Assembly (NCBI GenBank): GCA_026003895.1
Contig: BPIC01000003.1
Span: 487,148-551,147 of the forward strand
Length of the DNA stretch: 64,000 nucleotides
Direction: 5' to 3'
Origin: Dehalococcoidia bacterium
GTDB lineage: Bacteria; Chloroflexota; Dehalococcoidia; SpSt-223
Under the pieces are notes generated by a model. The model was given only the letters and a program-made list of their open reading frames with translations, was not told the origin of the DNA and did no database searches. Below are positions 16,155 to 61,538 of the stretch, in pieces; within the stretch, counting starts at the first letter, position 1; each line of letters opens with the position of its first letter. Made by a program: the position numbers and the translations under genes.

Positions 16155-16192
16155 ATAGAGTCACTCTATCCCTCGTGTAGCGTTGTCGTCAA
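16155..16192 (-). promoter_or_regulatory. Promoter with palindromes upstream of the NarL-type regulator
   Basis: On the minus strand TTGACG (16192-16187) and TAGAGT (16168-16163) are 18 bases apart. The -10 box lies inside the perfect palindrome ATAGAG-TCA-CTCTAT (16155-16169). The -35 box lies inside a second inverted repeat, AGCGTT-N6-AACGCT (16179-16196). The arrangement suggests repressor or self-regulation. Confidence 0.5.
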
Positions 16193-16226
16193 CGCTGCGG
16201 AGCTTGACCCTGCCTGTGCGGGTATG

Positions 16227-26887: not shown

Positions 26888-26980
26888 CTACCGCCCAGGA
26901 GGCGCCGACGCCGGTAGGCCTCGGGCACGGCCATCCCTCAGGCCGTCGCGCTGCCGTACCGAGGCGTGCGGTGAACCGCA

Positions 26981-43856: not shown

Positions 43857-43905
43857 GCCGGGGCTCCTCGCGAGCGTATGAGAGCGGTCTGAACGGGTTG
43901 GGCAT
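43849..43905 (-). CDS. Possible 18-codon leader peptide
   Basis: GGAGGTG followed seven bases later by ATG opens a short frame (first residues MPNPFRPLSYARE) whose TGA lies inside the first codons of the next gene. It may couple translation of that gene. The ribosome-binding site is better than chance, but nothing else supports it as a real protein. Confidence 0.35.
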   Translation of the reverse strand: MPNPFRPLSYAREEPRHA

Positions 43906-43924
43906 AGAGCACCTCCACTACAGA

Positions 43925-43951
43925 GACGGGGAGCCCGTTCCGGCTCCCCGT
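43925..43951 (-). terminator. Hairpin inside the PRTRC-type operon
   Basis: GACGGGGAGCC (43925-43935) pairs with GGCTCCCCGTC (43941-43951) over a five-base loop. No T-run follows on either strand, so it could act as a weak terminator, a pause, or an mRNA processing or stability element after the ThiF gene. Confidence 0.5.
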
Positions 43952-43981
43952 CGCGTGGTCTCGCGGGCCGCTGGGGCGGTG

Positions 43982-44857
43982 TCAGGCCCGCCGCGCCCGC
44001 GGGGCCACCGCGTTGACGTGCAGCCCGGCGATGGCGGCCACGGTCTTCGGCTCGGCGGGGACGCAGCGGAGCGTCCCGTCGTCGAGGTCGAAGTAGCTCG
44101 CCATCCAGCCGCAGGTCCGGCTGAGGAGCTTCTCGACATAGCTCGCCGCCAGCGCGGCCACGACCTGGTTGATGGTCGGGCCCTGGTCGCCGCTGGCGAC
44201 CGCCTCCGCACAGTCGGGCAGCGGCCGCGGCTCGGGCGGCGCGTCGAGCAGGTCGGGCCGTTGCAGGCTGGGCGCGGGCAGCGCCCGGCACAGCTCGCCG
44301 GACGCGACGAACGCCCCGCGCAGCGCCTCCGGGCGCGTCGCGTTGCCGAGCAGCACCTGGCCGCTGTTGCGGCCATTGCCGGTATCGAGCCACCATACGG
44401 GCTGCGGCGGGCGGGGGTAGGCGTAGCCCCAACGGCGCTCGTCGAGGGTGGCAGCGATGGCCCGGCGCGCCCCGCCGTTGTCGACGCAGCCGATCAGGAG
44501 ATCGAGCCGGCTGCGGGCGTCGCCGAAGACCTGCGCGTGCAGGTCGCCGTCGTAGGGCAGGACCGAGTAGCCCACCTCGCGCCCGAACCGCCGGGCGAGC
44601 CGCTCGGCCAGGACCTCGGCTTTGAAGCGGCCCACGTCGGCCTTATCGAAGGTCTGGCGCGCCACGTTGTGCGGCTCGACCCGGTCGGGATCAATGAGGT
44701 AGAGCCGGGCGGACCGGCCGAGCAGGAGCCGGCAGACCGCCTCGGCCAGGAAGCCGCCGGTGCCGCCGCAGCCGACGACCACGATGGTCGCCTCGCGCTC
44801 GTAGCGCACGAGCTGCGTGCCGTCGCCGGTCGGGCTGGGGTCAATCCGGTACGCCAT
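43982..44857 (-). CDS. PRTRC system ThiF-family protein
   Basis: A 291-residue E1-like protein. The nucleotide-binding motif is IVVVGCGGTGGFLAEAV near residue 25, followed by LYLIDPDRVEPHNVARQTF, as in ThiF/MoeB/E1 enzymes. ThiF-like enzymes adenylate the C-terminus of ubiquitin-like proteins; the target here is not known. It overlaps protein A by 17 bases. The PRTRC (ParB-related, ThiF-related) cassette is a named set found on plasmids and integrative elements. Confidence 0.85.
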   Translation of the reverse strand: MAYRIDPSPTGDGTQLVRYEREATIVVVGCGGTGGFLAEAVCRLLLGRSARLYLIDPDRVEPHNVARQTFDKADVGRFKAEVLAERLARRFGREVGYSVLPYDGDLHAQVFGDARSRLDLLIGCVDNGGARRAIAATLDERRWGYAYPRPPQPVWWLDTGNGRNSGQVLLGNATRPEALRGAFVASGELCRALPAPSLQRPDLLDAPPEPRPLPDCAEAVASGDQGPTINQVVAALAASYVEKLLSRTCGWMASYFDLDDGTLRCVPAEPKTVAAIAGLHVNAVAPRARRA

Positions 44858-45458
44858 CGCCGTCGGTCCCCGCGGGCGGGTCGAAGTGGACGTCGCGGAA
44901 CGGGCCACGGTCGCCCTCGAAGACCGCCTCCCACGGCACCGGCAGGAAGTAGCCGTAGACGCCCACCCGCAGCGCCACCTCCGGTCGCTCGGTGCCGAGC
45001 CGGCCGATTACGCCGTACAGGCCGAACCCCTGCTCGTCGGCGTCGTCGGTCCGGCTGAAGCAGGCGGGATAGACGCCGTGGGAGTGGATCTCGAGCAGGA
45101 CGTCGGCCAGCGGTCGGTAGACCACCCGCAGCCGCCCGGCGACCTGGGTCGGCCGCAGGAGCTGATAGCCCGACGGCTCCACGCTCACGGCCAGGAGCAG
45201 CTCGCGCTCGGGCCGGGCGCCGGCGGCCGCGACGATCTGGCCCCAGAGGCACTGGGGGAGCCGCCCGCGCCGAAGCGCGAAGCAGGGGTGGAGGGACGGT
45301 AGCCCCCGGACAGTCGCGCGCGCCACCGGGACCCGCGCGGCCAGGTGCAGGCCCTCGGTCGCGACGTACAGCCCGTCGCCGGCCAGCAGGTAGTCGTAGG
45401 CCAGCCCCCGACGCGGCGGGGGGCCGTCGCGGGCGACCAGGTACTCGACCAGCGCCAT
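44841..45458 (-). CDS. PRTRC system protein A-like, JAB/MPN-type
   Basis: A 205-residue protein. The metal-binding JAMM signature is visible: LEIHSHGVY, then S and D in FSRTDDADEQG, followed by GLYGVIGRL. JAB-type proteins remove ubiquitin-like proteins from targets and often pair with a ThiF-type enzyme, which is the next gene here. The ATG is two bases after the protein B stop. The pairing suggests a prokaryotic ubiquitin-like conjugation pathway, but no modifier protein is obvious. Confidence 0.75.
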   Translation of the reverse strand: MALVEYLVARDGPPPRRGLAYDYLLAGDGLYVATEGLHLAARVPVARATVRGLPSLHPCFALRRGRLPQCLWGQIVAAAGARPERELLLAVSVEPSGYQLLRPTQVAGRLRVVYRPLADVLLEIHSHGVYPACFSRTDDADEQGFGLYGVIGRLGTERPEVALRVGVYGYFLPVPWEAVFEGDRGPFRDVHFDPPAGTDGDGVPD

Positions 45459-45460
45459 CG

Positions 45461-46102
45461 TCAGCCGCCGATCGTGAGCGCGTCGGCGACCCGCAGCGCC
45501 GGCACGAGGTCGTCGAGCGGGTAGGCGCGCTCGCCATCGAGCTCGGCCCACAGGGCGCCGACGTCGTCGGGGTGCCGCTGCGACTTGCCGCGGGCGGTAT
45601 CGCCGGTCGCGGAGAAGTAGGAGCGGAAGAACTCCTCGGGCACGCGCGCCGGGTCCGACGGGAAGGCATGCGAGCCGGTGCAGACCCGCCCGGAGCCGAA
45701 GACGTTGTACGCCGGCGCGTGATAGAGCTGGTCGTCGGGCGTCTTCGGCCGTGCCTTCGCCGCGAAGACGTAGGGTGCCTGGCGCGCCGGCAGGCAGAGG
45801 AAGAGGAGCCCGGGCAGCGGCAGGCGCAGGCGGCGCGGCGGTGCGTCGTAGCGCTCGCGCAGGCGCACACTCCAGACCCGTGGCTCGCGCCAGACGGCCA
45901 CCCGTTCGCCGCTCGCGGTCCTGGCCCACCAGAGCGTGTCCGGTGGCAGGATGCCGCTCGCCAGGTCGAGCTCGCGGGCGAGCGCGTGGGCGACGTCGAG
46001 GGCGGAGACGAGTTTGGTGCGGACCACGCCGCCGGCGTAGTCGTGCAGCACCACGCTCTCGCCATGGAAGTCGAGGCGCAGCCGCAGCGGGTCTTCCCGC
46101 AC
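45461..46102 (-). CDS. PRTRC system protein B-like
   Basis: A 213-residue protein that resembles PRTRC protein B in layout: an N-terminal beta region (LRLRLDFHGESVVLHDYAGG), a middle with WWARTASGERVAVW, LPLPGLLFLCLP, and a C-terminal YNVFGSGRVCTGS. Its biochemical role is not known. The start is uncertain: GTG at 46102 is chosen because family-like sequence begins there. An ATG at 46207 would overlap the upstream gene by about 97 bases. Confidence 0.7.
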   Translation of the reverse strand: MREDPLRLRLDFHGESVVLHDYAGGVVRTKLVSALDVAHALARELDLASGILPPDTLWWARTASGERVAVWREPRVWSVRLRERYDAPPRRLRLPLPGLLFLCLPARQAPYVFAAKARPKTPDDQLYHAPAYNVFGSGRVCTGSHAFPSDPARVPEEFFRSYFSATGDTARGKSQRHPDDVGALWAELDGERAYPLDDLVPALRVADALTIGG

Positions 46103-46109
46103 CTCGGCA

Positions 46110-46985
46110 TCAGGCGGCAGCGCCCAGCGGTAGGGGGAGGGACTCGGCGTCCTCCGGCTCGTCGTGCGGGACCGGGAGGAGCCCGTGTTCGGTGATCTCG
46201 CAGGCATAAAACCTCCGCATGCGTTCGTACTCCAGGTAGGCGTCGCGCCCGAGCGCGGCAGCGAGCAGCCGCTCGAAGCGCGCCGCCGGGTCCGCCTCCA
46301 GCCAGCGGGCGAGCTCGCCGGTGCGGTCGAGGAGCTCCCTGGCCAGCCGCCAGTGGTCGGCCAGCTCCAGGACGTTCTCGCGCGTCCACTCGATGTCGGC
46401 GACCGTCTGCTCGTCCACATCGAGGAAGACGCTGCCGGTGTCCCCCCAGAGCCAGTCGGCGTACTCCGCCGCCGCGGCGTAGGGGGTGCCGTCCAGTCGC
46501 TCGTGCAGTTCGGCCGGCGTCAGGCCGGCCTCCGGGAGCTCGGCGAGGAGCGCGCGCGGCACGTGCGCCTCGGCCGCGTCGAGCAGCGCGACCCGACTGT
46601 CGTAGCCGCTCTCGTACGGCTGGGCGCAGAGGGCGAACAGCAGCAGCTCGCCGGGAGACAGGTCGAGCTCATGGAAGCGGTCGTACGACCAGGCGTTCCT
46701 GACGAACGGGATGCCGCAGAGGACCTGCTCATACTCGTCGTACTCGTAGACCGGGAAGTACTCGGCCTCGACCTTGTGCAGGAACGCCCAGACGCGGGCG
46801 CTCTCGCGGTCTCCGTCGCGCCCGGTGGCTGCCAGGATCTCCGCCTCGGCCTCGGGGAACACGTCCCGGACGAGCTGGCGGAACGCCAGATAGGCGCCGT
46901 GGCGCTCGAGGAGGTCGACGACGGACGACGGCGCGACCGGCGCCCGCCGCAGCGCCTCCCCGAGCGCCTCCAGGCTCGGGATCAC
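46110..46985 (-). CDS. Hypothetical acidic protein in the PRTRC-type cassette
   Basis: A 291-residue, Glu/Leu-rich and mostly helical protein with no recognised domain. It has many Tyr residues in the first half (EYFPVYEYDEYEQ) and a helix-rich end. The GTG start overlaps the protein C stop (GTGA). Its place between C and B is where other cassettes may carry extra genes. Function unknown. Confidence 0.6.
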   Translation of the reverse strand: MIPSLEALGEALRRAPVAPSSVVDLLERHGAYLAFRQLVRDVFPEAEAEILAATGRDGDRESARVWAFLHKVEAEYFPVYEYDEYEQVLCGIPFVRNAWSYDRFHELDLSPGELLLFALCAQPYESGYDSRVALLDAAEAHVPRALLAELPEAGLTPAELHERLDGTPYAAAAEYADWLWGDTGSVFLDVDEQTVADIEWTRENVLELADHWRLARELLDRTGELARWLEADPAARFERLLAAALGRDAYLEYERMRRFYACEITEHGLLPVPHDEPEDAESLPLPLGAAA

Positions 46986-47389
46986 CGCGCCGGGAGCTGG
47001 CGCAGCGCCTCCGTCGCCTGCTGGGTCGCCCGCGCGTAGGCCCGCGCCTCGGCCAGCGCCAGGTTGAGCTCCGGCTGGCGGGCGGCCGCCCGGTCGGCGT
47101 CGAGCTCGCCGTCGCCGTCGAGCAGGTCGGCGGCGAGGTCGAAGATGCGGAGCCGCCTGGCCGGGACCCGGCGCAGGACGGCGACGACGTCGCGCGAGCG
47201 CCGGCGGCCTTTCGTGCCGATCCGCTTGGTGAAGGTCACGACGGTGTCCTCGGCGCGCTGATCCTCGCGCGTATCGGCGTTGGCCAGCTCCGGGAAGAAT
47301 TCGGCGAGCTGCTTGCGCACCTCGTCGACCGCCAGCTTCGGGTCCGGGTCGGGGAACTCCCGGCCGTCGTAGACGAACACGCGTGCCAT
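46982..47389 (-). CDS. PRTRC system protein C-like
   Basis: A 135-residue protein. The first 70 residues resemble PRTRC protein C (VFVYDGREFPDPDPKLAVDE, then LAEFFPELANAD, and VTFTKRIGTKG). The last 60 residues are an Ala/Arg-rich helical extension. The ATG at 47389 has AGGAGG upstream. It is a small cytoplasmic protein of unknown action; a role as the ubiquitin-like partner of ThiF is a speculation. Confidence 0.72.
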   Translation of the reverse strand: MARVFVYDGREFPDPDPKLAVDEVRKQLAEFFPELANADTREDQRAEDTVVTFTKRIGTKGRRRSRDVVAVLRRVPARRLRIFDLAADLLDGDGELDADRAAARQPELNLALAEARAYARATQQATEALRQLPAR

Positions 47390-47411
47390 GTGAACCTCCT
47401 GGAAGGTGGAC

Positions 47412-47828
47412 TCAGCCGAAGAGCGAGAGCTGGCCGGGGCGGGCCGGCTCTCCGGTCGCGTCGGGGATCGGCCCCGCAGCCTCCGGCTCAGGAGGAGCGG
47501 GCGGGAGCGATGCCGGCGGGCCGCTCGGTCGGGCGGGGCGGGCCCTGGGCGCCGGCCGCACCGTCGGGTTGCGCGGGTGTGTCTGCCAGCGGTCCTCCGC
47601 CTCGGCGACGAGCGCCGGGACCTCGTCGAGGGCGCCCTGCAGGTCGCCCGCCTCGGCCGAGCGCAGCAGTGGGTCGCAGCCGTCCGCCCCGAGCGCCAGG
47701 AGGGCGCGGTAGCCCGCCCCCTCGACCGGCCGCAGCGTCACGACGAGCTTGAGCGACCGGCGCGGCGTCGGCGCCGCCGGTCCGGCCGCAGCCATCTCGG
47801 CACCAGGCGGCTCATCGGTTGCCTCCAC
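47412..47828 (-). CDS. PRTRC system E-like protein with C-terminal clamp-type motif
   Basis: A 138-residue protein, first of the operon. The core (RSLKLVVTLRPVEGAGYRALL, then ALGADGCDPLLRS) has the look of PRTRC protein E or a related partner. A Pro-rich tail follows. It ends with PGQLSLFG, a good match to the beta-clamp motif QL(S/D)LF. The start is uncertain: GTG at 47828 or an ATG 33 bases later. Confidence 0.55.
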   Translation of the reverse strand: MEATDEPPGAEMAAAGPAAPTPRRSLKLVVTLRPVEGAGYRALLALGADGCDPLLRSAEAGDLQGALDEVPALVAEAEDRWQTHPRNPTVRPAPRARPARPSGPPASLPPAPPEPEAAGPIPDATGEPARPGQLSLFG

Positions 47829-50792: not shown

Positions 50793-51023
50793 TCATCGCA
50801 CAGTCGGTTCGCCGGCCCGGAAGCCCACGCGTTCGACGGCAACGACGAGCTGCTCAGCGCGGGCGAGCGCCGGGTCATACTCGACGTACGCCATCTCGGT
50901 CGCCGGATTGACGTAGGCCCGGCTCACCCCCGGCACCTTTGCCAAGGCGCGCTCCACGGTCAACGCCCCGCCGCCCCCGCATCCCAGGCCGTAGATTGCC
51001 ATAGTGAGACGCTCGGTCCGCAT
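50793..51023 (-). CDS. HMA-domain protein with altered metal site
   Basis: A 76-residue heavy-metal-associated fold (ferredoxin-like): beta strand TMAIYGLGC, helix ALTVERALAKVPGVSRA, strand AYVEYDP, helix ARAEQLVVAVERVGF. The usual GMxCxxC metal loop is changed to GLGCGGGG, so only one of the two Cys remains. It may bind metal weakly or as a dimer, or have lost metal binding. It is expressed from a promoter with four 11-base repeats (51075-51114) and lies just after the two-component kinase gene. Confidence 0.75.
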   Translation of the reverse strand: MRTERLTMAIYGLGCGGGGALTVERALAKVPGVSRAYVNPATEMAYVEYDPALARAEQLVVAVERVGFRAGEPTVR

Positions 51024-51059: not shown

Positions 51060-51114
51060 AGTATCAGGCCGCCTCCTGAGGGGGACCTGAGGCGGGCCTG
51101 AAGCTTCCCTGAGG
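51060..51114 (-). promoter_or_regulatory. Four 11-bp repeats and -10 box before the HMA gene
   Basis: On the plus strand CCTGAGG (51075), CCTGAGG (51086), CCTGAAG (51097) and CCTGAGG (51108) start exactly 11 bases apart. Read on the minus strand, nine bases after the last repeat comes GATACT (51065-51060), a -10 box. The repeats thus replace the -35 region, the layout of an OmpR/PhoB-type activator site. Confidence 0.8.
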
Positions 51115-51142
51115 AGCCGGCGGATGCAGGGCGGGTGCGCGC

Positions 51143-52624
51143 TCAGGGGGGAGGCGACGTGCGGTGGTCGGCCATCGTCTGTGTCCCCGTTCCGGCCCTC
51201 GCTCGAGCGCCGACGGGGAGGCGAACCGTGGCGATGGTGCCCTTCTCGGGCTCGCTCGCGAGCGTGAGCTCCCCCCCGTGCTGCTCGGCGATCCAGCGGG
51301 CGATGGGGAGGCCGAGCCCGGTGCCGCTGGGGTCCCGGGCCCGGGCCGGGTCGGCGCGGTAGAAGCGCTCGAAGACGTGGGGCAGGTCGTGCGCCGCGAT
51401 GCCCACTCCGGTATCGCGGACGGTGACCTCCGCGGCCGTCCCGTTCCGGCTGAGTCCGAGCGTGACCTGTCCGGTCGGCGGCGTGTACTTGAGCGCGTTG
51501 TCGAGCAGGATGAGCAGGAGTTGCCGCAGCCGGTCCGGGTCGCCCTCAACCAGCGCCGGCTCCAACTTGGCGACGTCGAACCGCTGCCCTCGCGCCAGGT
51601 GGCGCGCCTCGCCCAAGACGTCCAGCACCACCCGGTCGAGCTCGACGAGCTGCCGGCGGAGCGGCACGCCGGCGTCGGCGCGGGCCAGCATCAGCAGGTC
51701 GGCCACCAAGACCGCGAGGCGGCGGGCCTCCCGGGCGGCCTCGCCCACTGCCTCCTGCTGCTCGCTGGTCGGCATGTTCGGCCGGCGCTCGAGCAGCTCG
51801 AGGTTCGCCTGGATGGCGGTGAGCGGCGCCCGCAGCTCATGTGAGGCATCGCTGACGAAGCGCTGCTCCGACCGGTATGCGCGCTCCAGACTGGCCAGCA
51901 TCTCGTTGAAGGTAGCCGCCAGGCGCCCCAGTTCGTCCTGTTGGGGGCCGACCGCCACTCGACGATCGAAACCGCGCGAGCGCGCGATCGCGGCGGCCGT
52001 CTCCGTGAGCGCCGCCACCGGCCGCAGGGCGCGGCCGGCCAGCAGCACCGCGGCCACGAAGGTCAGGCCCGCGCCCGCCACCACGAGCAGGGCCACCAGC
52101 AGGCGGAATCGCGCGACGGAGGCATCGATCCGCTCGAGCGGTGCCGCCGCCAGGAGGAAGCGGGCCGACCCATCGGTCGGCAGCACGTACAGCCGCCAGC
52201 GGTGGCCGTCGGGCCCGGTGGTCAGCCCGAACGCGCCACGGCCGGGGTCTTCGGAGATGAGGGCGGGCGCCAGGCGCACGACCGGGTCGAACGGCGGTCC
52301 GGACGGCCGCGCGATGATGGCGCCTGGGTCGACCGGGGGCACCAGCCCGGCGCTCGGCGACTCGGCCAGGACCTGACCGCCGGGCCCGTAGACTCGCAGC
52401 GCGGCGTCGGGCGCGGCGGGTACCGCCAGCGGGCCCGCTAGATCGGCAGACGACCCGGCCCCTGTGTATTCCTCGACGACGTGCTCGGCCGCACTCCGCA
52501 GCGCCCGGTCCAGGTCATCGTAGTGCGCGCGGGTATGCGCCGCGTAGGCGGCCATGGTCACCATGGCACAGCACAAGAAGGCGAGCCCGCCGTAATACAG
52601 CGCCAGGCGCCAGCGGATGGGCAC
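51143..52624 (-). CDS. Sensor histidine kinase of an OmpR-type two-component system
   Basis: A 493-residue inner-membrane kinase. Membrane helix 1 at 8-30; an exported sensor domain of about 150 residues; helix 2 near 172-196; HAMP; H-box FVSDASHELRAPLTAIQ near residue 262; N-box LLILLDNALKYTP; G1 VRDTGVGI and G2 GTGLGL. It autophosphorylates on His and passes the phosphate to the regulator directly upstream. The GTG start is two bases after the regulator stop. The signal is unknown; the regulated genes hint at metal or envelope stress. Confidence 0.92.
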   Translation of the reverse strand: MPIRWRLALYYGGLAFLCCAMVTMAAYAAHTRAHYDDLDRALRSAAEHVVEEYTGAGSSADLAGPLAVPAAPDAALRVYGPGGQVLAESPSAGLVPPVDPGAIIARPSGPPFDPVVRLAPALISEDPGRGAFGLTTGPDGHRWRLYVLPTDGSARFLLAAAPLERIDASVARFRLLVALLVVAGAGLTFVAAVLLAGRALRPVAALTETAAAIARSRGFDRRVAVGPQQDELGRLAATFNEMLASLERAYRSEQRFVSDASHELRAPLTAIQANLELLERRPNMPTSEQQEAVGEAAREARRLAVLVADLLMLARADAGVPLRRQLVELDRVVLDVLGEARHLARGQRFDVAKLEPALVEGDPDRLRQLLLILLDNALKYTPPTGQVTLGLSRNGTAAEVTVRDTGVGIAAHDLPHVFERFYRADPARARDPSGTGLGLPIARWIAEQHGGELTLASEPEKGTIATVRLPVGARARAGTGTQTMADHRTSPPP

Positions 52625-52626
52625 GG

Positions 52627-53301
52627 CTACTCCTCCCGGAGCACGTACCCCGTGCCGCGCAGCGTGTGGATCAGCCGCGGCTCGCCCTCGGCCTCGAGCT
52701 TCTGGCGGAGCTGCTTCACGTACACCTCCAGGACGTTCGTGCTGCCGTCGAAGTCGTAGCCCCAGACCCGGTCCATCAGCATGTCTTTGGGCAGCACTCG
52801 CCTCGGATGCTCGAGGAATTGGCGCAGGAGATCGTACTCGGTCGTGGTGAGGCCGATATCCCGCGCTCCGCGCCGCGCTCGCCGCGTACCGGTATCCAGG
52901 CTGAGGTCCGCGAACCGGAGCACCGGTGGCTGTTCGGCCTCGTGTCGCCGGAGCAGCGCCCGCACGCGGGCGAGGAGGACTGCGAAGGTGAATGGCTTCA
53001 CCACATAGTCGTCGGCTCCCTGCTCCAGCCCCCGGACCTGATCGGCCGGGGCGTCCTTGGCCGTGAGCAGGAGGACCGGGAGTCGAGGGTCGGCCGCCCG
53101 CAGTCGCTGGAGCACCTCGAGCCCATCGAGGCCGGGCATCATGATGTCGAGGATCACCAGGTCCGGCGGCCGGTCGCGGGCGATGGCCAGCCCCTCGGCC
53201 CCCGAGCTGGCCGTGTCCACAGCAAAGCCCTCGTAGGACAGGCCGCGTTTCAGGACGCTGGTTACGGCCGGATCGTCGTCAATCACCAATGCGCGCTGCA
53301 T
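52627..53301 (-). CDS. OmpR/PhoB-family response regulator
   Basis: A 224-residue activator. Receiver domain: acidic pair in VIDDDPAV, phospho-Asp in LVILDIMMPGLDG, Thr and Lys in LLLTAKDAP. C-terminal winged helix: LTTTEYDLLRQFLEHPRRVL, then VEVYVKQLRQKLE-type end with HTLRGTGYVLREE. It is translated with the kinase. Proteins of this family bind tandem repeats spaced 11 bases apart, and four such arrays lie nearby (51075, 53579, 56736, 61501), so it is the best candidate for their binder. Start ATG 53301. Confidence 0.93.
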   Translation of the reverse strand: MQRALVIDDDPAVTSVLKRGLSYEGFAVDTASSGAEGLAIARDRPPDLVILDIMMPGLDGLEVLQRLRAADPRLPVLLLTAKDAPADQVRGLEQGADDYVVKPFTFAVLLARVRALLRRHEAEQPPVLRFADLSLDTGTRRARRGARDIGLTTTEYDLLRQFLEHPRRVLPKDMLMDRVWGYDFDGSTNVLEVYVKQLRQKLEAEGEPRLIHTLRGTGYVLREE

Positions 53302-53578
53302 GCACAGTGCCCTCCGCTTGTCGCCGGCCGACGCGGCGCGTCGAGCGCTGTGTATGCGAGCGGCGAAATCCGCCGGGTGACTCCGCCAGGGGACAGCGTC
53401 AGAGGCCGGCAGGCGGTTCCGCGGGTGTGCCACGCTTCGGCGGCATCACGCCATACCCTCCGGGCGGGCGCAGCGGGCTGCGCCTTCACCAACAGCACTC
53501 GCCTCGATGATGCGGCGAAGCCGGGTTCTCGATCGGTATTGTACCACCGGGCCAGCAGCCGGGGCCTCGCCACGCGCG

Positions 53579-53630
53579 CTCAGCCCGGCCTCAGCCCCCC
53601 CTCAGGCTTGATTCAGCCACCACCGATACG
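53579..53630 (+). promoter_or_regulatory. Four 11-bp repeats and -10 box before the UbiB-family gene
   Basis: CTCAG (53579), CTCAG (53590), CTCAG (53601) and TTCAG (53612) start exactly 11 bases apart. About eight bases after the last repeat comes GATACG (53625-53630), a plausible -10 box. The gene starts at 53664. This is the same layout as at the HMA promoter. Confidence 0.78.
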
Positions 53631-53663
53631 CTGTGACTACCAACGCACGCGGCGGGGAGTGGC

Positions 53664-55337
53664 ATGGCGAACGCGCGCGAGGCTGGTCACCGGCTCCGCT
53701 ACCGTCAGATCACGGATATCCTGACCCGCCACGGGCTCGGCTACCTGGCCGGCGCCGTCGGCGTGGAGCGGTTCGCGCCGTTCCACAAGGGATTGCTGGG
53801 GCATGCTCGGCGCGCAGAACCCTATACGCGGCCTGAGCACGTCCGGCTGGCATTCGAGGAGCTCGGGGCCACCTTCATCAAGCTTGGCCAGATCCTGTCG
53901 ACCCGCGCCGACCTGCTGCCGCCCGAGTACCAGGCGGAGTTGGCCAAGCTGCAGGACGCTGCCCCGTCGGTGCCGTCGGCCGTGGTGCAGGAGGCGCTCG
54001 TCGCGGAGCTCGGCGTCCCGATCGAGGCCGCGTTCGCGAGCTTTGACCCCGCGCCGCTGGCCGCGGCCTCGATCGGCCAGGCCCACGCCGCGACCCTCCT
54101 GGATGGGACCGAGGTCGTGGTCAAGGTGCGCCGACCCGGCGTCGTCGAGCAGGTCGAGGAGGACCTCGAGGTCCTGCAGAACCTGGCCGCGGCGGCAAGT
54201 CGCCGCTGGGAGGTGGCCGACCAGTACGACCTGGTCGGGCTGGCCCAGGAGTTCGCCCAGACCCTCCGGGCCGAGCTCGACTACCTCCGCGAGGGTCGGA
54301 GCGCCGAGCGCTTCGACTCGAGCTTCGCCGACGATCCGGACGTCCACATCCCGCGGGTGTTCTGGGAAACCACCAGCTCGCGAGTGCTGACCCTGGAACG
54401 GGTTCGCGGGATCAAGATCAGCGACGTGGCCGCGCTCGACGCCGCGGGTATCGAGCGGGCTGCCTTGGCCCAACGGGCGGCGCGCATCGTCCTGAAGATG
54501 GTGTTCGAAGACGGCTTCTTCCACGCCGATCCGCACCCCGGCAACTTCTTCGTCGAGCCGGGCGGTCGGATCGGGCTGATCGACTTCGGCATGGTCGGGA
54601 CGGTCGACGAGCGCACGCAGGAGCAGCTCGTGCGGCTGCTCCTGGCCATCACCAGCCAGGAGGCCGATCGGCTCGTGGACGCCTTCCTGGAGCTTGGCGT
54701 CGCGCGGCAGCGCGTCGACCGCGGCCTGCTGCGGCAGGACCTGGAGCATCTGGTCTCGCGCTACTACGGCCGGCCACTCGGGGAGATCGCGCTGGCTTCG
54801 CTGCTCAACGACAGCCTGGACGTCGTCCGGCGCCACCACCTGCAGCTCCCGCCGAACCTGATGCTGCTGCTCAAGACGGCCGCGATGTGCGAAGGGCTGG
54901 CGGCGCAGCTCGACCCCTCCTTCCGTTTGACGACGGTGCTGGTGCCCTATGCCGAGCAGCTGATGCTGCGGCAGTATTCGCCCTTCGTCTGGGGGCGACG
55001 CCTGGGAGAGGCCGGCCTCGAGGCGGCCCAACTCGGCGCCGAACTCCCGCGACATCTGCGGCGGCTGATCGCCGACCTGGAGCGCGGCAATCTCGAGGTG
55101 GGCATGCGGCCGACCGGCTTAGAGCCGCTGGTGCGCCGACTCGAGCTACTGGCCAACCGGATCGTGCTCGGCATTCTGGCCGCGGCCTTCATCAACGGCC
55201 TGGCGATCCTGATGTCGGTCTACCACCCGCGGGGCCTGGAGCAGTGGGCCGGAGCCCTCTTCGCCATAGGGTTCGTGCTGGCCGGTGTGTTGGGCGCCTA
55301 CCTGGCGGTCAGCATTCTGCGCTCCGGGCGGGCCTGA
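53664..55337 (+). CDS. AarF/UbiB/ABC1-family protein kinase-like protein
   Basis: A 557-residue atypical kinase. The KxGQ motif FIKLGQILSTRADLLP lies near residue 70; the Ala-rich loop AAASIGQAHAA near 133; the catalytic region HADPHPGNFFV near 290; and IDFGMVG (DFG) near 308. Two hydrophobic segments end the protein (LANRIVLGILAAAFINGLAI region and the last 25 residues). Relatives support quinone or lipid metabolism at membranes. It has its own repeat-type promoter. Start ATG 53664 with GGGGAG upstream. Confidence 0.9.
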   Translation: MANAREAGHRLRYRQITDILTRHGLGYLAGAVGVERFAPFHKGLLGHARRAEPYTRPEHVRLAFEELGATFIKLGQILSTRADLLPPEYQAELAKLQDAAPSVPSAVVQEALVAELGVPIEAAFASFDPAPLAAASIGQAHAATLLDGTEVVVKVRRPGVVEQVEEDLEVLQNLAAAASRRWEVADQYDLVGLAQEFAQTLRAELDYLREGRSAERFDSSFADDPDVHIPRVFWETTSSRVLTLERVRGIKISDVAALDAAGIERAALAQRAARIVLKMVFEDGFFHADPHPGNFFVEPGGRIGLIDFGMVGTVDERTQEQLVRLLLAITSQEADRLVDAFLELGVARQRVDRGLLRQDLEHLVSRYYGRPLGEIALASLLNDSLDVVRRHHLQLPPNLMLLLKTAAMCEGLAAQLDPSFRLTTVLVPYAEQLMLRQYSPFVWGRRLGEAGLEAAQLGAELPRHLRRLIADLERGNLEVGMRPTGLEPLVRRLELLANRIVLGILAAAFINGLAILMSVYHPRGLEQWAGALFAIGFVLAGVLGAYLAVSILRSGRA

Positions 55338-55382
55338 ACTTCCGAGCTGGCCGTCTGACGCCGCGACTCTCGCCGACACGAA

Positions 55383-55416
55383 GACGGGCCGCGATCCCCA
55401 CGATTCGCGGCCCGTC
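55383..55416. terminator. Hairpin between two convergent genes
   Basis: GACGGGCCGCGA (55383-55394) pairs with TCGCGGCCCGTC (55405-55416) over a 10-base loop. It follows the UbiB-family stop by 46 bases and precedes the beta-propeller gene stop (read from the other side). No T-run is present, so it may serve both strands. Confidence 0.6.
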
Positions 55417-55466
55417 GGCTCTGCTTGCGGTGGGCGGCTCCGGGGCTCCGCAGCCACCCAACACGA

Positions 55467-56654
55467 TCAATGCTGCATACCAGGCATCGGCGCGTCGTCC
55501 GTGTGTTCGGGCAACGTCAGCTTGATCTCCGGCGCGGCGGCCGGTGCCGGCGGCAGCGATGAGAAGCTGATCCCGTTCGGCCCGGCGCCGGTCGGGATGG
55601 TGGCGACCACGCCCCCTTCGAGCAGGTCGATCACCGAGACGTTGTCGGCGTAGATGTTGCTGATGTAGGCATGGCGGCTCGACGGGTCGATGACGACGCC
55701 GTGCGCGCCAAGACCGGTTTCGACCGTGCGGACGACCTCGAAGCGGCCCGTGTCGACGATCGAGACGGTTGTGCTCGGATTGCTCCGCGTGCCCTGGTTG
55801 GCTACCAGCAGGAACTTGTCGTCCGGGCTGACGTACACCTGAATCGGGCCGACGCCCACCTGGAGCTTCCCGAGCAGCGCCCGCGACGCCACATCCAGCT
55901 TGCCGACGGCGTTCTCGGCATTCAGCGAGAAGTACGCGAACCGGCCATCGGCCGAGAAGCCGACCTGGACGGGGCTCTGGCCGACTTCAACGTCAGCGAT
56001 GTTCGCGTTGCTGGCGGTGTCGATGATGCTGAGCGTCCTGTCCCTGGCGTTGGCGACGTAGACCCACTTCCCATCCGGGCTCGGGCGCAGGCCGTGCGGG
56101 TACTCGCCGACCGGGATGGTCGCGATGGCCTGCATGGTCGCGACGTCGATCGCGGTGACGGTGTTGTCGTCGCCGTTGGTCGCGTAGGCGGTCCTCCCGT
56201 CCGGCGTCAGGATGATGTGGGCCGGCTCGTTGCCGGTGGGGACGGTGCCGAGTAGGCGGTAGGTCGCCGCGTCGATGCTCAGCGCGAGCTTCTCGTGGCC
56301 GCTGACCGCCCAGACGGTCTGTCCATCAGGCGCGACCTGCAGGTTGTGCGGCCCCTCGACCCCGGTCAGGCGGGTGACGACTTGGTTGGTGGCGGCGTCG
56401 ATCACGGTCAGGCCGTTGCCGTATTCGTCGGCCACCCAGACGGTACCCTGCACCACGCCGACGTGGCCCGCGCTGACCTGGGACTGCGCTCCTGGATGGT
56501 GCTGCTCGTGGCCGCCGGCCTGGGCAACTGCCTCCTGAGCCGCGGCCCGCATGGCGAAGCCAAGACTCGAGCCGCCGACGGTCACGGGGAGCGAGGCCAG
56601 GCCGCCCGCCAGAGCCAGCCCGAGCAAGAGCGTGCGGACGTTGACGCGTTTCAT
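55467..56654 (-). CDS. Secreted YVTN-type beta-propeller protein with Met/His-rich end
   Basis: A 395-residue exported protein with signal peptide (RTLLLGLALAGGLASLPV). A His-rich segment (GGHEQHHPGAQ) follows the cleavage site. The rest is a seven-bladed propeller built of about 42-residue repeats such as GRTAYATNGDDNTVTAIDV and GKWVYVANARDRTLSIIDT. The tail ends in DDAPMPGMQH, Met- and His-rich, which could bind copper. It is under the same 11-base repeat-type promoter as the HMA gene. Role: possible metal binding or surface interaction. Confidence 0.82.
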   Translation of the reverse strand: MKRVNVRTLLLGLALAGGLASLPVTVGGSSLGFAMRAAAQEAVAQAGGHEQHHPGAQSQVSAGHVGVVQGTVWVADEYGNGLTVIDAATNQVVTRLTGVEGPHNLQVAPDGQTVWAVSGHEKLALSIDAATYRLLGTVPTGNEPAHIILTPDGRTAYATNGDDNTVTAIDVATMQAIATIPVGEYPHGLRPSPDGKWVYVANARDRTLSIIDTASNANIADVEVGQSPVQVGFSADGRFAYFSLNAENAVGKLDVASRALLGKLQVGVGPIQVYVSPDDKFLLVANQGTRSNPSTTVSIVDTGRFEVVRTVETGLGAHGVVIDPSSRHAYISNIYADNVSVIDLLEGGVVATIPTGAGPNGISFSSLPPAPAAAPEIKLTLPEHTDDAPMPGMQH

Positions 56655-56719
56655 GCTGGTTTCCTCCTCCCGACCTGTCAGCACGGGCCAGCTGGCAGAT
56701 CGGTTCTCAGGTTGTGTAG

Positions 56720-56773
56720 AGGGTAAGTCGCGAAGCTGAGCGCAGGATGAGGCACAGCTGTGCGCTGCCTGAG
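56720..56773 (-). promoter_or_regulatory. Four 11-bp repeats and -10 box before the beta-propeller gene
   Basis: On the plus strand CTGAG (56736), ATGAG (56747), CTGTG (56758) and CTGAG (56769) start exactly 11 bases apart. Read on the minus strand, nine bases after the CTCAGC repeat comes TACCCT (56725-56720), a TANNNT -10 box. The gene ATG is at 56654. Confidence 0.75.
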
Positions 56774-56836
56774 GAACGCCACACGGTCTTGCGCGCGCGT
56801 CGATCACTCCGATCGAATGGGTCGTGCGCAGCGTCG

Positions 56837-57082
56837 CTACCGAGGCGCTCCGACCGACTGACGTCCCGCTCCTGCCGGTGTGGGCCGTCGGGTCAGGTAT
56901 TCCTCCACCTCGACGCCCCAGAAGACCACAGAACTCAGGACGAGGCTGAGGGCCAGGTCTTGCGGCGACTAGGCCATAGTGTCAAAGAAGTCCTGGAGAA
57001 ACGGCACGTACACCACGGCCCGGATGGCGGCGTTCATGCCTGGCGCGACGCCGCCACTCGTCACGACCGCGACCCGCCTCAT
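56837..57082 (-). pseudogene. Chimeric remnant: start of pfkA joined to end of a P-type cation ATPase
   Basis: The ATG overlaps the LDH stop (ATGA). The first 24 codons match the N-terminus of 6-phosphofructokinase (VVTSGGVAPGMNAAIRAVV, with the usual Asp after GG changed to Val). The sequence then switches to the last part of a cation-transport P-type ATPase (VYVPFLQDFFDT), an in-frame TAG follows at 56969-56971, and the ATPase-like sequence continues (SPQDLALSLVLSSVVFWGVE) to a stop at 56837. The switch lies in a shared AVV stretch. It marks a deletion that removed most of both genes. Confidence 0.75.
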
Positions 57083-58044
57083 GCCTCGCCCTCGCGGAGG
57101 TGGCCGATGATCCCCTTGAGCACGTCGGCCGAGCGGCGCAGCCGGGCGACCTCATCGTCGCTCAGGGGCAGTCGCAGGACCTGCGCCAGGCCGCGGCGGT
57201 CCACGACCGTCGGCAGGCTCAGGCAGACGTCGCGGATGCCGTAGTAGCCCTCAACCAGGCTGGAGACCGACAGCACGGTGCCCTGGTCGCGCAGGATCGC
57301 CTCGACGATGCGCAGCAGCCCGGCCGCGACCGCGTAGTAGGTGGCACCCTTGCGGCGGATGATCTCGTAGGCGGCGTCTCGGGTCTGGCGGAAGATCTCG
57401 TCCATCGCGGCGCGCTGGAAGGCCAGGCCCTGGGCCGCGCAGAAGTCGGCCAGGCGCATGCCGGCGATGTTGGCCAGCGACCAGACCGGCACCTCGCTGT
57501 CGCCGTGCTCGCCGATGATGTAGGCGTGGACGCTGCGGGAGTCGATGCCGAAGTGCTGGCTCAGCAGGTGGCGGAAGCGGGCGGTGTCGAGGATCGTGCC
57601 GGAGCCGATCACGCGCTCCTTCGGCAGGCCGGAGAGCTGCAGCGAGGCGTAGGTCAGCACGTCGACCGGATTCGTCGCAATCAGGAGGATGCCGTCGGGG
57701 TTGTGGCCAGTCACTGCGGGCACGACCTGGCGGAAGATGGCCGCGTTGCGCTGCAGGAGGTCGAGGCGACTCTCGCCCGGCCGCTGGTTCGCGCCGGCCG
57801 CGACGACGGTCACCGCTGCCCCGGCGCAGTCGGCGTAGTCGCCGGCCCAGACACGCGTCGGGCGGGCGAAGGGTACGGCGTGGTTCAGGTCCATCGCTTC
57901 GCCCTCGGCCCTGGCTCGGTCGACATCGATGAGCACGATCTCTACCGCCAGGCCGCTGAGCAGCAGGGCGTAGGCGAAGGTGGCGCCTACGTTCCCGACG
58001 CCCACAATGGCAACCCGGGTCGGATACGGGCGTATTTGCAGCAC
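57079..58044 (-). CDS. ldh: L-lactate dehydrogenase
   Basis: A 321-residue NAD-dependent enzyme that interconverts pyruvate and L-lactate. NAD site VAIVGVGNVGATFAYAL; GANQRPGES with the Gln that favours pyruvate over oxaloacetate; ATNPVDVLTY; and the active-site IGEHGDSEVPVWS are all seen. Its stop overlaps the ATG of a broken pfkA fragment, suggesting it once formed a fermentation operon with pfkA. The GTG at 58044 is used as start. Malate dehydrogenase is less likely because of the Gln. Confidence 0.93.
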   Translation of the reverse strand: MLQIRPYPTRVAIVGVGNVGATFAYALLLSGLAVEIVLIDVDRARAEGEAMDLNHAVPFARPTRVWAGDYADCAGAAVTVVAAGANQRPGESRLDLLQRNAAIFRQVVPAVTGHNPDGILLIATNPVDVLTYASLQLSGLPKERVIGSGTILDTARFRHLLSQHFGIDSRSVHAYIIGEHGDSEVPVWSLANIAGMRLADFCAAQGLAFQRAAMDEIFRQTRDAAYEIIRRKGATYYAVAAGLLRIVEAILRDQGTVLSVSSLVEGYYGIRDVCLSLPTVVDRRGLAQVLRLPLSDDEVARLRRSADVLKGIIGHLREGEA

Positions 58045-58380
58045 GTGGTCTCAACTCGCTTTCAGGCCAAAACCGGCCCGGAGGCTGTGCTGAGGGCCGC
58101 TGCTCGACTCGGTGCTGGAGCCCGGGCCGATAGCCGCCCCCGCCGCGTAGTGCTCGATCTGCCACAGCAGCGCGGCATCAGGTTGATGCTCAGCCGGACG
58201 CCCCTCTGCTCGGGCACCAGGGCCGCCAGCGAGTGGTCGTCGCGGGTGGCGTGCAGCGGCCCCCGCGGCTCGGGGTAGCTGCCCACCTCGTAGCCGGACG
58301 AGGCGTCCTTGGAAGCCTGCGCTACTCATGCGAGCGGAGGGGCAGGGGGCGCGCAGGCTCGTCCATGGCCGCAGTCATCC
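58045..58380. other. Gap upstream of ldh
   Basis: A frame on the minus strand (58051-58329) has some protein-like stretches (YPEPRGPLHATRDDHSLAAL) but in a second frame, so it may be a decayed gene. I do not recognise it. No promoter is clear. Confidence 0.35.
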
Positions 58381-59403
58381 TCACCCACCCCGTCGCATCC
58401 CCTCGTCTTGGTCGATCGCACGACGAAGCGCAGCCGCGGTGTCTTCGGGCCGCGAGGGGTTGACGAGCATGCCCGAGCCGAGCTCGAAGCCGGCCGCCGT
58501 CGAGAGGCGCGGGACGATGCGCAGGTGCCAGACGAAGTACTCGCGGCCCTCATCGCCGACCGGCGCGCTCTGGATGACGTAGTTGTAGTCCGGATCGCCG
58601 AGCTCGCGGCTCAGGCCGCTGAGCACCGAGCGGAGAATCGAGGCCAGGTCATTCAACGCGTCGTCGTCGGCGTCTCCGAACGAGGGCTGGTGGAAGCGAG
58701 GCATGATCCAGGTCTCGAAGGGTGAGGCCGAGGCGAACGGCTGGAAGGCCACGAAGCGCGCGCCCTCCAGGACGACGCGCCGCCCGTCGCTCAACTCCCG
58801 ACCGAGGATGTCGACGTAGAGGCAGGTACCGAGGTCATCGTAGTGCTGCATGGCCACGTCGAAGCGCTGGCGGATCTGGACCGGGACGACCGGGCTGGCG
58901 ACGATCTGGGAGTGTGGGTGGGCCAGCGAGGTGCCGGCGCCCGGCCCGTGGTTGCGAAAGACGATGACCAGCGCGCTCCCCCCGGCGCGCAGCTCTCGAT
59001 AACGGGCGCGGTAGGCTTCCAGCACGTTTCGCACCGCCGCATCATCCGCCCGAGCCAGATCGGCGCCGTGGTCGGACGATTCGATCACGACTTCGTGCCA
59101 TCCGACGCCCGGCATCGCCACGAAGCCCTCGGGGCTGACGTGCCGGCGAGCGCTGCCATCGCCGGCCAGCAGCGCGAACTTGTTCGGCACGACCCGCACT
59201 CGCCAGTTGCCGTCCGGCCCGTCGAGACGCCACAGCTCGCCCGGCGTCTCAGCCTCACGCCCCGGGCAGAACGGGCAAGCTGCATCACCTGGGAGCCGGC
59301 CCCGCTGAGCGCGGAACACATCCGGCCGCCGGCCGCGTTCCGGGGCGATGACCACCCAGTTCCGCGTGGATGGATCCTGGCGGAGCTCGGTCATGGCTGC
59401 CAT
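58381..59403 (-). CDS. galT: Galactose-1-phosphate uridylyltransferase
   Basis: A 340-residue enzyme of the Leloir pathway that swaps UMP between UDP-glucose and galactose-1-phosphate. The catalytic HxHxQ motif is SLAHPHSQIVASP near residue 162. The first zinc site pair is CPFCPG near residue 43, and the second-site His is in FHQPSF. The gene begins directly after the glycosyltransferase stop. Some relatives act on other sugar phosphates (ADP-glucose type), so the exact substrate is not proven. Confidence 0.88.
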   Translation of the reverse strand: MAAMTELRQDPSTRNWVVIAPERGRRPDVFRAQRGRLPGDAACPFCPGREAETPGELWRLDGPDGNWRVRVVPNKFALLAGDGSARRHVSPEGFVAMPGVGWHEVVIESSDHGADLARADDAAVRNVLEAYRARYRELRAGGSALVIVFRNHGPGAGTSLAHPHSQIVASPVVPVQIRQRFDVAMQHYDDLGTCLYVDILGRELSDGRRVVLEGARFVAFQPFASASPFETWIMPRFHQPSFGDADDDALNDLASILRSVLSGLSRELGDPDYNYVIQSAPVGDEGREYFVWHLRIVPRLSTAAGFELGSGMLVNPSRPEDTAAALRRAIDQDEGMRRGG

Positions 59404-60855
59404 TCACTCGCCGCTCCGGGGTGCTGCGGCCACGGCCCGCAGGAAGCGCTCGGGTGCGCCGGTGAACTGCTGGCGGCAGGCTTCCGAGCAGAAGGCATAG
59501 CGTCGCCCTTGGTGTTCGATGGCTAGCGCCGTGCTCGGGTCGAGCTGCATGCCGCAGACCGGGTCGCGTAGCTCGCCCGCCAGGCCGACTTTGGCCGCCG
59601 GGGCCGCAGCGACTGAAGGCGTCCCGAGCAGGGAGCCGTACAGCCGGAGCTCGTCGGCGATGAGCCGGGTCAGGAGGAAGCGCTCCCGCACCAAGTCCCG
59701 CCCGCGTTCCGCAAGCGCCCGGCCGTGGTCGGGGTGTCGGAGCAGCCAGAGCGTCCGTTCGGCGCAGGCTTCGACGGAGTCCACCAGGAAGCCACCCGCC
59801 GCGCCCTGGAGCTGCAGCGGGATGCCCCCGGCCCGACCGGCCACGACGGGGGTCCCCTTCCAGAGGGTCTCGGACACCACGAGACCGAACCCTTCGCGGA
59901 GCGACTTCTGGATGACCACGTCCGACAGGCGTTGGAAGGCGTTGACCTCGACGTTGCCGACACCGGTCAGGTTGGTAAAGAGGTGGATGCTCGGATCGAG
60001 CCTTGCCGCGTCTCGAATCTGGCGGTACACGTCCCAACCCTCCGGGTCATCGAGCGCCATCGAGCCGACCAGCGCCAGCTGCAGGTCGGGGACCTCGGCC
60101 TTGACGAGGCGATAGGCGGCGATCACGCCGAGCGGATCTTTCCAGGGGTCGAAGCGGCTGACCTGGGTCACGAGCGGCTTGTCGACCTCCACTCCGATCC
60201 ATTGCAGCACGCGCCGGGCGAGGCCCGCGCCGAGCTCGATGTTCTTCGGGCTCTCCGGGTCGATGGCCGGTGGGATGATCTCGACGCGGCCAACCGGGAA
60301 GTCAGGCGGGACGAAGCCGCCGAGCGTGAAGACCGCCGCGTCGTAGCCGACCAGGTACGGCCGCAGGAAGCCCCAGACCTGGGGGTTCGGCTCGGAGGTG
60401 TCGATGTGGCAGCGCCAGATCCACTGCGCCGCGCCCTTGCCGTGCAGCTCGAGCAGCGCCAACGGCTGCGGGTCGTGCACGATGATGAGGTCGTACTGCT
60501 CCTCGAGCAGCCGCGCGTTGCGGGTGGCGTTCGCGAGATACGTCTCCTGCTCGGCCGCCGTCAGCTCGCGCCCGGCGCCCTGCAGGCCGTTGTGCATGGC
60601 TTTGGTGACCGAGAAGAAGGCCTCGTCGCCGGTGATCAACTTCCAGTCGGCCGCCAATCCGAGGTCGCGCAAGAGCGGGATCTCGGAGCGCAGGATCTCG
60701 GCCACGCCGCCTCCGTAGGGCGTGGCGTTCAGGTGGAGCACGCGGGCGCCGCGCAGCGGGGCCGCCAGCGCGCGGAGTTGCGCGACAGGCGCGGCCCCGG
60801 CGCTCGCCTCATAGCAGTCGATGCACTGCACCCCAACATCGACGGTCTCAAGCAT
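59404..60855 (-). CDS. Trehalose-synthase-like glycosyltransferase fused to a YHS domain
   Basis: A 483-residue protein. Residues 1-420 form a GT4-type glycosyltransferase of the trehalose synthase (TreT) group: [31 protein letters not shown], and the nucleotide-sugar motif [19 protein letters not shown]. The last 50 residues are a YHS metal-binding domain (DPVCGMQLD, then [12 protein letters not shown]). The enzyme would make trehalose from glucose and a nucleotide sugar. The YHS part suggests metal sensing or metal binding. The ATG at 60855 overlaps the small membrane gene. Confidence 0.82.
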
Positions 60856-60961
60856 GCGCGTCCTCCCCCTGTCGCCTGGCACCCGCCACCAGCCGCCCCA
60901 GGATTAGGCCGATTAGTACGACGATCAGGCCGGGGATCGGCAGCCACAACTCGGGGAGCAT
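60848..60961 (-). CDS. Small single-span membrane protein
   Basis: A 37-residue frame: one hydrophobic helix ([20 protein letters not shown]) and a charged end (RRQGEDAHA). Its stop overlaps the glycosyltransferase ATG, so it may couple translation. The start is uncertain (ATG 60961, or ATG 60988 giving 46 residues). No strong ribosome-binding site precedes either. Confidence 0.45.
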
Positions 60962-61110
60962 GCGGTCAGCACGGCGCCAGTGGAGCATCGGGCCGGACCG
61001 CTTGACCCCGATCGGGATCACCGACGCGGTCCAGTCCCGCAGCGTGGTGCCTCTCGAGTCGCACCGAGTCAGGGACGCCCGCCCCGCCGTCCGCTGTGGT
61101 GCCCGCCGGC

Positions 61111-61419
61111 TCAACGGCGGGCCCAGGTGTTGTAGAGCCACGCGAAAGCAGCGGTTCCGAGCCAGACCGAGCCACCAAAGGTGACCAGTCCAACGATGAA
61201 CTCACCCGGTCGGAACCACGCACCCGTTGGGCGCAGGGGGTCTAGCGAGAGGCCGTGGAACCAAGGCTGGAAGACCCAGATCAGCGCTTCCGGCGCCACG
61301 AGGGCAAGCGCCGCGCAGATCAGATACCCGGCCAGTGCCACCGTTGCGGCAGCGTTGGCCAACGCCCGCGCCTCGAGCCTCATGGCGAGGTCCGCCTGCT
61401 CTCGTGCGATGCTAGCCAT
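61111..61419 (-). CDS. DUF5676-like small membrane protein
   Basis: A 102-residue protein with two to three membrane helices. The end (FGGSVWLGTAAFAWLYNTWA) and the WFHGLSLDPL segment resemble DUF5676 family membrane proteins, which are often found near metal-resistance genes. A very strong ribosome-binding site (AAAGGAGG) precedes the ATG at 61419. It is probably first in an operon with the small membrane protein, glycosyltransferase and galT, driven by the 11-bp repeat promoter upstream. Confidence 0.65.
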   Translation of the reverse strand: MASIAREQADLAMRLEARALANAAATVALAGYLICAALALVAPEALIWVFQPWFHGLSLDPLRPTGAWFRPGEFIVGLVTFGGSVWLGTAAFAWLYNTWARR

Positions 61420-61484
61420 CGCAACCTCCTTTCGGCCGAGGAGTCGTTCGGGCCGGCGCGCGGGCCCCTGCCCCGGTCGTTCCC

Positions 61485-61538
61485 AGCGTACGGCGGCAGC
61501 CTTAGCGCAGCCTGAGGCGAGACTGAGGACTACCTGAG
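61485..61538 (-). promoter_or_regulatory. Four 11-bp repeats and -10 box before the DUF5676-like gene
   Basis: On the plus strand CTTAG (61501), CTGAG (61512), CTGAG (61523) and CTGAG (61534) start exactly 11 bases apart. Read on the minus strand, nine bases after the last repeat is TACGCT (61490-61485), a TANNNT -10 box. The gene starts at 61419. Confidence 0.78.

Follow-up and report, generated by a model that had tools for sequence, protein, structure and literature searches.

Introduction

The PHO box of Escherichia coli PhoB and the PhoP box of Bacillus subtilis both lie close to the −10 element, and the latter, a phosphate-responsive operator, consists of four repeats with TTAACA-type half-sites. 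Here we describe operator-like repeat arrays in a Dehalococcoidia bacterium (Chloroflexota), starting from a window of 64,000 nucleotides (GCA_026003895.1, contig BPIC01000003.1, positions 487,148 to 551,147, forward strand) in which four arrays of four YTCAG half-sites (Y = C or T) lie near the genes of an OmpR/PhoB-type response regulator and a sensor kinase. Positions are those of the window unless a locus (L), contig (C) or genome (G) label precedes them. Judging from the DNA, we consider it probable that these elements belong to a self-contained copper-type regulon, in which the regulator encoded at 52627-53301 would bind the four half-sites and activate eight predicted promoters.

Half-site and 11-bp step match the box of Pseudomonas aeruginosa PhoP, an OmpR/PhoB-family regulator with TTCAG half-sites 11 bp apart, given as GTTCAGNNNNNRTTCAG in the excerpted source (PMC3156716). 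Its known targets are Mg2+ and polymyxin genes and not copper genes. The PHO box of E. coli PhoB shares the 11-nt direct-repeat unit, to which the effector domain binds head-to-tail, but has CTGTCAT as half-site (excerpt of PMC4415409) and phosphate as signal. Similarly, the cre/blr tag of CreB/BlrA, TTCACNNNNNNTTCAC or TTCAC-N6-TTCAC, is a pentamer-N6-pentamer direct repeat one letter off TTCAG, but it has two half-sites and its targets are beta-lactamase and cre-regulon genes (excerpt of PMC3660660). The CopRS/CusRS/SilRS systems (TIGR01387/TIGR01386) have copper genes as targets and supply the best-scoring NCBIfam model for the regulator; they are set apart by the window pair scoring below both model cut-offs and by its many separate array-bearing promoters. 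Because half-site and step agree with the P. aeruginosa PhoP box, and the PhoB and cre/blr boxes are alike in layout, the predicted binding mode is of a known kind; the novelty lies in the regulon, in its regulator and in the rigid grammar of four sites. In a literature search that reached few subscription papers, neither a CTCAG or YTCAG x4 operator nor a copper two-component regulon of Chloroflexota was found to be described.

Repeat arrays and promoter geometry

The initial annotation had described four identical repeat arrays in the window, each nine nucleotides (in the fourth case seven to eight) from a −10 box. All four are present, with half-sites 11 bp apart. The conserved part, however, is YTCAG only, as the N6 spacers vary, and in each of the four, 10 nt separate the last TCAG from the −10-like hexamer, a fixed distance that reduces the earlier values to a single one. 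The elements are as follows.

51076-51113, minus strand: array 1, four YTCAG half-sites, one mismatch to CTCAG-N6 x4, upstream of the gene for a heavy-metal-associated (HMA) protein
51060-51065, minus strand: −10-like hexamer GATACT of array 1, N10 from the last half-site (element 51060..51113)
53579-53616, plus strand: array 2, four half-sites, one mismatch to CTCAG-N6 x4, upstream of the UbiB-like gene
53627-53632, plus strand: −10-like hexamer TACGCT of array 2, N10 from the last half-site (element 53579..53632)
56736-56773, minus strand: array 3, four half-sites, two mismatches and thus the weakest of the four, upstream of the YNCE-like beta-propeller gene
56720-56725, minus strand: −10-like hexamer TACCCT of array 3 (element 56720..56773)
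61501-61538, minus strand: array 4, four half-sites, one mismatch, upstream of the DUF5676 / TreT-YHS / galT genes
61485-61490, minus strand: −10-like hexamer TACGCT of array 4 (element 61485..61538)

The CTCAG-N6 x4 pattern, with up to three mismatches allowed, gave no match in 100 dinucleotide shuffles of the window. As strict CTCAG scanning overlooks weaker members, it was supplemented by a position-weight matrix and a letter-free scan. Three further good arrays lie past the window on the same contig, C3 (L023:5880, L023:8822 and L023:13323), and an eighth, L024:577, at the beginning of contig C4, which may or may not be linked to the window stretch. Altogether the genome holds eight arrays, seven of them inside approximately 25,000 letters. 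Another candidate, L023:15155, was dropped with a matrix score of only 14.9, and at ldh, where the initial annotation had already seen at most two weak repeats, there is no matrix match of 12 or higher. In the scan of the own genome, TCAG x3 with at most one mismatch gave 21 matches (13 at C3:538-565 kb, two at the C4 start and six elsewhere), the six outside the array places comparing with five genome-wide matches to the reversed control pattern. TCAG x4 at the same stringency gave seven matches, all at C3:538-563 kb or the C4 start, and none for the control; array 3, with its two mismatches, is outside these seven. Across the window and 23 loci, TCAG yielded 38 four-copy matches (overlapping registers counted), and the 22 letter permutations other than TCAG and its reverse complement yielded zero to one each. 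Equally good arrays thus do not occur at random throughout the genome, a possibility that the initial annotation had named as fatal to its proposal: outside the array places, counts equal the background.

In all eight arrays of the genome, the last TCAG lies 10 nt from a −10-like hexamer. An alignment was made of 24 arrays picked on half-sites alone (eight own and 16 from relatives, covering seven same-class genomes including this one, plus Ktedonobacter). At N10, position 2 of the hexamer is A in 24/24 and position 6 is T in 23/24 arrays, and the full TANNNT occurs in 14 of them, compared to two at other offsets. Four weaker candidates that had been kept out beforehand (L023:15155, L025:3863, L066:4927 and L102:4651) have the A in 4/4 and the T in 3/4 cases at N10. 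Likewise, 18 of 20 places found later by half-sites alone carry N10-NANNNT (17/18, then 1/2, with G023:C94 as the one that fits), while none of nine single look-alike places, taken from genomes outside the top nine defined below, does so. Spacing and orientation are fixed, and a −35 consensus was sought in the aligned arrays and not found, half-site 3 itself excepted. With an operator beside the −10 element at fixed spacing and without a −35 consensus of their own, the predicted promoters have the layout of class II sigma-70 activator promoters.

This geometry bears on two other explanations. The arrays could be operators for repression, as P. aeruginosa PhoP represses from TTCAG boxes situated between the −10 element and the start codon (excerpt of PMC3156716). 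Window-type arrays, in contrast, are found upstream of the −10 element, at one fixed distance and orientation and at the place of the −35 element, as is the case with activators, which makes repression decidedly improbable. A second thought is that the arrays arose by tandem-repeat slippage, or are iterons, and play no role in transcription. Many loci of the unbiased scan described below are indeed plain 11-bp tandem repeats, but the window's arrays and those of its relatives have spacers that vary between copies, together with a conserved −10 spacing and gene context, and the look-alikes lack this −10 spacing. The fixed N10-NANNNT geometry disfavours this explanation as well, and we give it next to no weight.

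Regulator and kinase, and co-occurrence of the regulator with arrays

The OmpR-type regulator and kinase to which the initial annotation had pointed are encoded between arrays 1 and 2.

52627..53301, minus strand: OmpR/PhoB-type response regulator, proposed activator (receiver PF00072, 110.9 bits, and Trans_reg_C PF00486, 93.3 bits, both above cut-off)
51143..52624, minus strand: HAMP-HisKA-HATPase sensor kinase, proposed partner (domain matches)

No array in the window faces the response regulator gene itself; the neighbouring one faces the UbiB gene.

In a sample of 393 genomes of the same class, the arrays follow the orthologous regulator, in line with the role that the initial annotation had given it. 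Any TCAG x4 match with at most one mismatch was present in 37 of the 393, a count that includes tandem repeats and TGTCAG-type sites. We defined a non-tandem YTCAG place as one in which, of the three visible preceding bases, two or all are C or T, and in which any two spacers agree in at most 4/6 letters. Two or more such arrays occur in nine genomes (G000, G088, G056, G005, G190, G248, G023, G004 and G008), which are exactly the top nine by regulator homologue score (312-480 bits, 65-100% identity), and in none of the other 384. Expressed as a threshold of at least 65% regulator identity, 9/11 genomes qualify versus 0/382 others (Fisher p ~1e-16, the threshold having been seen after the fact). 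The contig that holds the regulator also bears arrays in 9/9 genomes. In a tree of 36 regulators (midpoint root only), the ten with strong CTCAG arrays all belong to one 13-member clade (support 97/94), and the remote regulators that come with TTCAG arrays (L107, three Bacillota and P. aeruginosa) branch outside it. A simple recognition-helix code was sought and not found, since the helices of CTCAG-clade regulators differ from one another (KQLRQK, RYLRNK, HSLRRK).

The same comparison addresses the question whether another OmpR-family regulator of the cell, and not the adjacent one, binds the arrays. There is no shortage of candidates, with 36 matches to the regulator within its own genome and paralogues that have similar arrays nearby (CTTAG/CTCAC). 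Yet it is the orthologue of 52627-53301 that follows YTCAG arrays across the 393 genomes, and no TCAG x4 array occurs in two same-genus genomes that have a homologue of 61-62% identity; we therefore hold binding by another regulator to be improbable. With the adjacent pair as the acting one, kinase 51143-52624 would phosphorylate regulator 52627-53301, which would then occupy all four half-sites as a pair of head-to-tail dimers aligned along a single helix face. The bound regulator would adjoin RNA polymerase and recruit it to a −10-only promoter, replacing the missing −35 contact (class II activation), and the signal would be copper or a similar soft metal.

Genes behind the arrays

The window genes behind the four arrays are the following.

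50793..51023, minus strand: small HMA protein, first gene behind array 1
53664..55337, plus strand: UbiB/ABC1-type atypical kinase, first gene behind array 2
55467..56684, minus strand: YNCE-like beta-propeller, first gene behind array 3
61111..61419, minus strand: DUF5676 membrane protein, first gene behind array 4
59404..60882, minus strand: TreT-like glycosyltransferase with C-terminal YHS domain, presumably in the array 4 operon
58381..59403, minus strand: GalT-like uridylyltransferase, presumably in the array 4 operon

Among the genes scanned, copper-type genes are the most repeated theme behind the arrays. A cupredoxin is the first gene at five arrays (L058, L060, L231, L232 and L233; genomes G004, G008, G088, G190 and G248), and a YHS-HMA P-type ATPase with a CPC motif lies behind three (L057, L102 and L235; G005, G056 and Ktedonobacter), the YHS match of L102 falling below its cut-off. 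In the own genome, broken frames with YHS, HMA and ATPase pieces follow the array at L023:13323. HMA proteins occur behind arrays in the own genome, in G023 and, by resemblance, in G005; UbiB in the own genome, in G088 (L142) and, by resemblance, in G005; and DUF5676 in the own genome and G088 (L142). Furthermore, we find DUF2933 in G056, a redoxin in G008, UbiE-like methyltransferases in G088 and G248, a SLOG protein in the own genome, a PEP synthase/PPDK-like gene and an SPW-repeat protein in G088, a MacB-like gene in G026 and a PPIase as second gene in G008. Several genes behind arrays have no Pfam match, some of them being lipoprotein-like, and no phosphate gene is found among the scanned genes; the regulator scores 204.7 bits with the PhoB model TIGR02154, below the cut-off of 296.2. 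Conservation upstream of related genes, which the initial annotation had proposed as a check, is borne out by arrays before UbiB, DUF5676, small HMA and YHS-HMA ATPase genes in other families. Its suggested theme of metal or envelope stress can, by gene content only, be narrowed to copper-type metal handling.

Several observations weigh against a copper-type regulon under this regulator. The pair does not reach the cut-offs of the corresponding models: the regulator scores 236.3 bits against 279.2 for the CopR/CusR/SilR model TIGR01387, and the kinase 191.6 bits against 292.55 for the CopS/CusS/SilS model TIGR01386. A Met/Cys metal motif common to the kinase sensor domains was sought by eye and not found, so that copper may be sensed indirectly. 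Several array genes are not copper genes (UbiB, PEP synthase, methyltransferases, MacB). Two of the 20 later places break the spacing, namely G190:4717 (N9) and G008:C241. The association between arrays and regulator is not free of exceptions either. The score threshold that delimits the nine genomes was noticed post hoc, G033 and G381 have a regulator of 65-66% identity and no TCAG x4 array, and G026, with a regulator of 62% and outside the top nine, has a single good array with N10-TACGCT. Within the regulator clade, the only array of D. deserti is degenerate, with N10-TACTGT, G028 uses the letters TTAAG and Candidatus Chlorohelix has no full array.

Some of these points would equally fit real OmpR-family operators that respond to a signal other than copper, such as envelope, redox or carbon/energy stress, with the copper genes as only part of the output. 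Next to the lack of a metal motif visible by eye, the variety of array genes, which includes UbiB, UbiE-like methyltransferases, PEP synthase, MacB, the second-gene PPIase and the sugar-nucleotide enzymes of the presumed array 4 operon, speaks for such a signal, as does a distant regulator (50% identity) with a TTCAG array, L107, that adjoins an HtrA-like protease. We nonetheless think it unlikely, since none of the scanned first genes recurs as often as cupredoxin (five arrays) and P-type ATPase (three), and DUF2933 and cupredoxin genes adjoin copper ATPases in Alteromonas, according to the excerpted report (PMC8478169).

Genomic setting

The regulon stretch differs from its surroundings in its closest matches. 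Blocks in window 1-16 kb align with the same-genus genomes G002 and G001 at 78-79% and 69-74% identity, respectively, and together with C3:297-305 kb these blocks match the same two genomes at 67-79% over long distances. For kinase, regulator and UbiB, most of the length aligns with G088, a genome of another family, at 74-77%; with the two same-genus genomes, the alignment is only partial and the matches look like paralogues. Window 39-47 kb also matches G088. Given the long same-genus matches elsewhere on the contig, next to the G088 matches at 39-47 kb and in kinase, regulator and UbiB, we favour an acquired stretch over a misbinned foreign contig. As the regulon stretch recurs in another family and the two same-genus genomes match it only in parts, these alignments make it likely that the regulon spreads horizontally together with its own regulator.

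A few other features of this region were observed. Window 43711-47438, including a ThiF-domain gene (43982-44908), has a 72% match to two separate G088 contigs and one short match in same-genus genomes; it may be part of the same acquired region. At L023:10660-13271 and 15436-18969 (C3:560-569 kb, near the contig end), a P-type ATPase, a phosphoketolase and an acetate kinase appear as several broken frames, due to decay or assembly errors; no array was shown to drive the phosphoketolase and acetate kinase pieces. Finally, a helicase, a DpnII/MboI-type nuclease and a Piwi-domain protein occur together at 24344-30825, resembling a prokaryotic Argonaute defence cluster.

Wider promoter grammar

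The four-site N10 layout also exists with other letters near paralogous regulators, as CTTAG/CTCAC (L063, L065), CTTAG/TTCAG (L066) and CTTAG (L071), with further variants reading CTCAT/CTAAG (L239-L241), TTAAG (L064) and CTAAT (L074). For instance, near the 61% regulator homologue in the own genome and in a same-genus genome, the order CTTAG, CTTAG, TTCAC, CTCAC, N10, TACAGT is found (L065:12521, L063:12125). The letter-free scan (4 x YTNAN, N10, NANNNT) matched 9/19 loci with 14 matches, three of which in the window, against none in the reversed sequence, and 3/4 further loci. The other 10/19 loci, including the Chlorohelix, D. deserti and T. roseum plasmids as well as G033, showed no match to it, which makes the shared grammar a lead and not a rule.

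An unbiased pattern scan of a wider contig collection gave at least 119 stretches, of which 119 were examined (80 + 39). Many are plain tandem repeats or lone matches that are uninformative on the regulon, and the scan is therefore no census. As a positive control, it recovered Pseudomonas loci with four to five TTCAG copies beside a homologous regulator. The two Pseudomonas regulators tested resemble PhoP but score under the cut-off of the PhoP model. Unlike the window's arrays, those of Pseudomonas/Halopseudomonas have TANNNT 11 nt, not 10, from the last half-site in 10/13 loci among the first 80 matches listed, and the Pseudomonas regulator is just 35-37% identical to that of the window. 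Non-tandem arrays with TANNNT at N10 are present in a few other contigs too (e.g., L105, L112, L156, L168, L193, among the matches listed). On the Chloroflexia contig of L107 (3907-5335), a TTCAG x4 array stands directly before the HtrA-like protease gene, adjoining the 50% identical regulator. In several same-class genomes, among them G377, G267, G349 and G339, arrays of the GTCAG/TGTCAG type with 11-bp steps recur; these may be phosphate-type operators. Tandem repeats of YTCAG with an 11-bp unit, perfect or nearly so, occur in contigs of Alistipes, Cupriavidus, Pusillimonas, Oxalobacteraceae and Bacteroidota (L082, L088, L093, L109, L145 and others), with no regulator match in the DNA fetched.

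A broader idea, of which we are somewhat more doubtful than confident, is that a group of OmpR-family regulators shares one grammar, i.e., four YTNAN half-sites at 11-bp steps, exactly 10 nt and a −10 element, to which each clade would bring its own letters (CTCAG, CTCAT/CTAAG, CTTAG/CTCAC, TTAAG or CTAAT), such that regulators and genes of uncultured bacteria could be paired from DNA alone. The CTCAG clade would then represent a portable regulon in which quinone (UbiB/UbiE-like) and carbon (TreT, GalT, PEP synthase) genes share the control of copper defence.

Significance

From the sequence alone, a regulator, a predicted operator and a target list are obtained for a two-component system of the little-studied Chloroflexota. 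Genes of unknown function (DUF5676, DUF2933, SLOG, the YNCE propeller and the UbiB-like kinase) become tied to predicted copper handling, and the rigid four-site, 10-nt geometry may help to pair other orphan OmpR-family regulators with their promoters in Chloroflexota.

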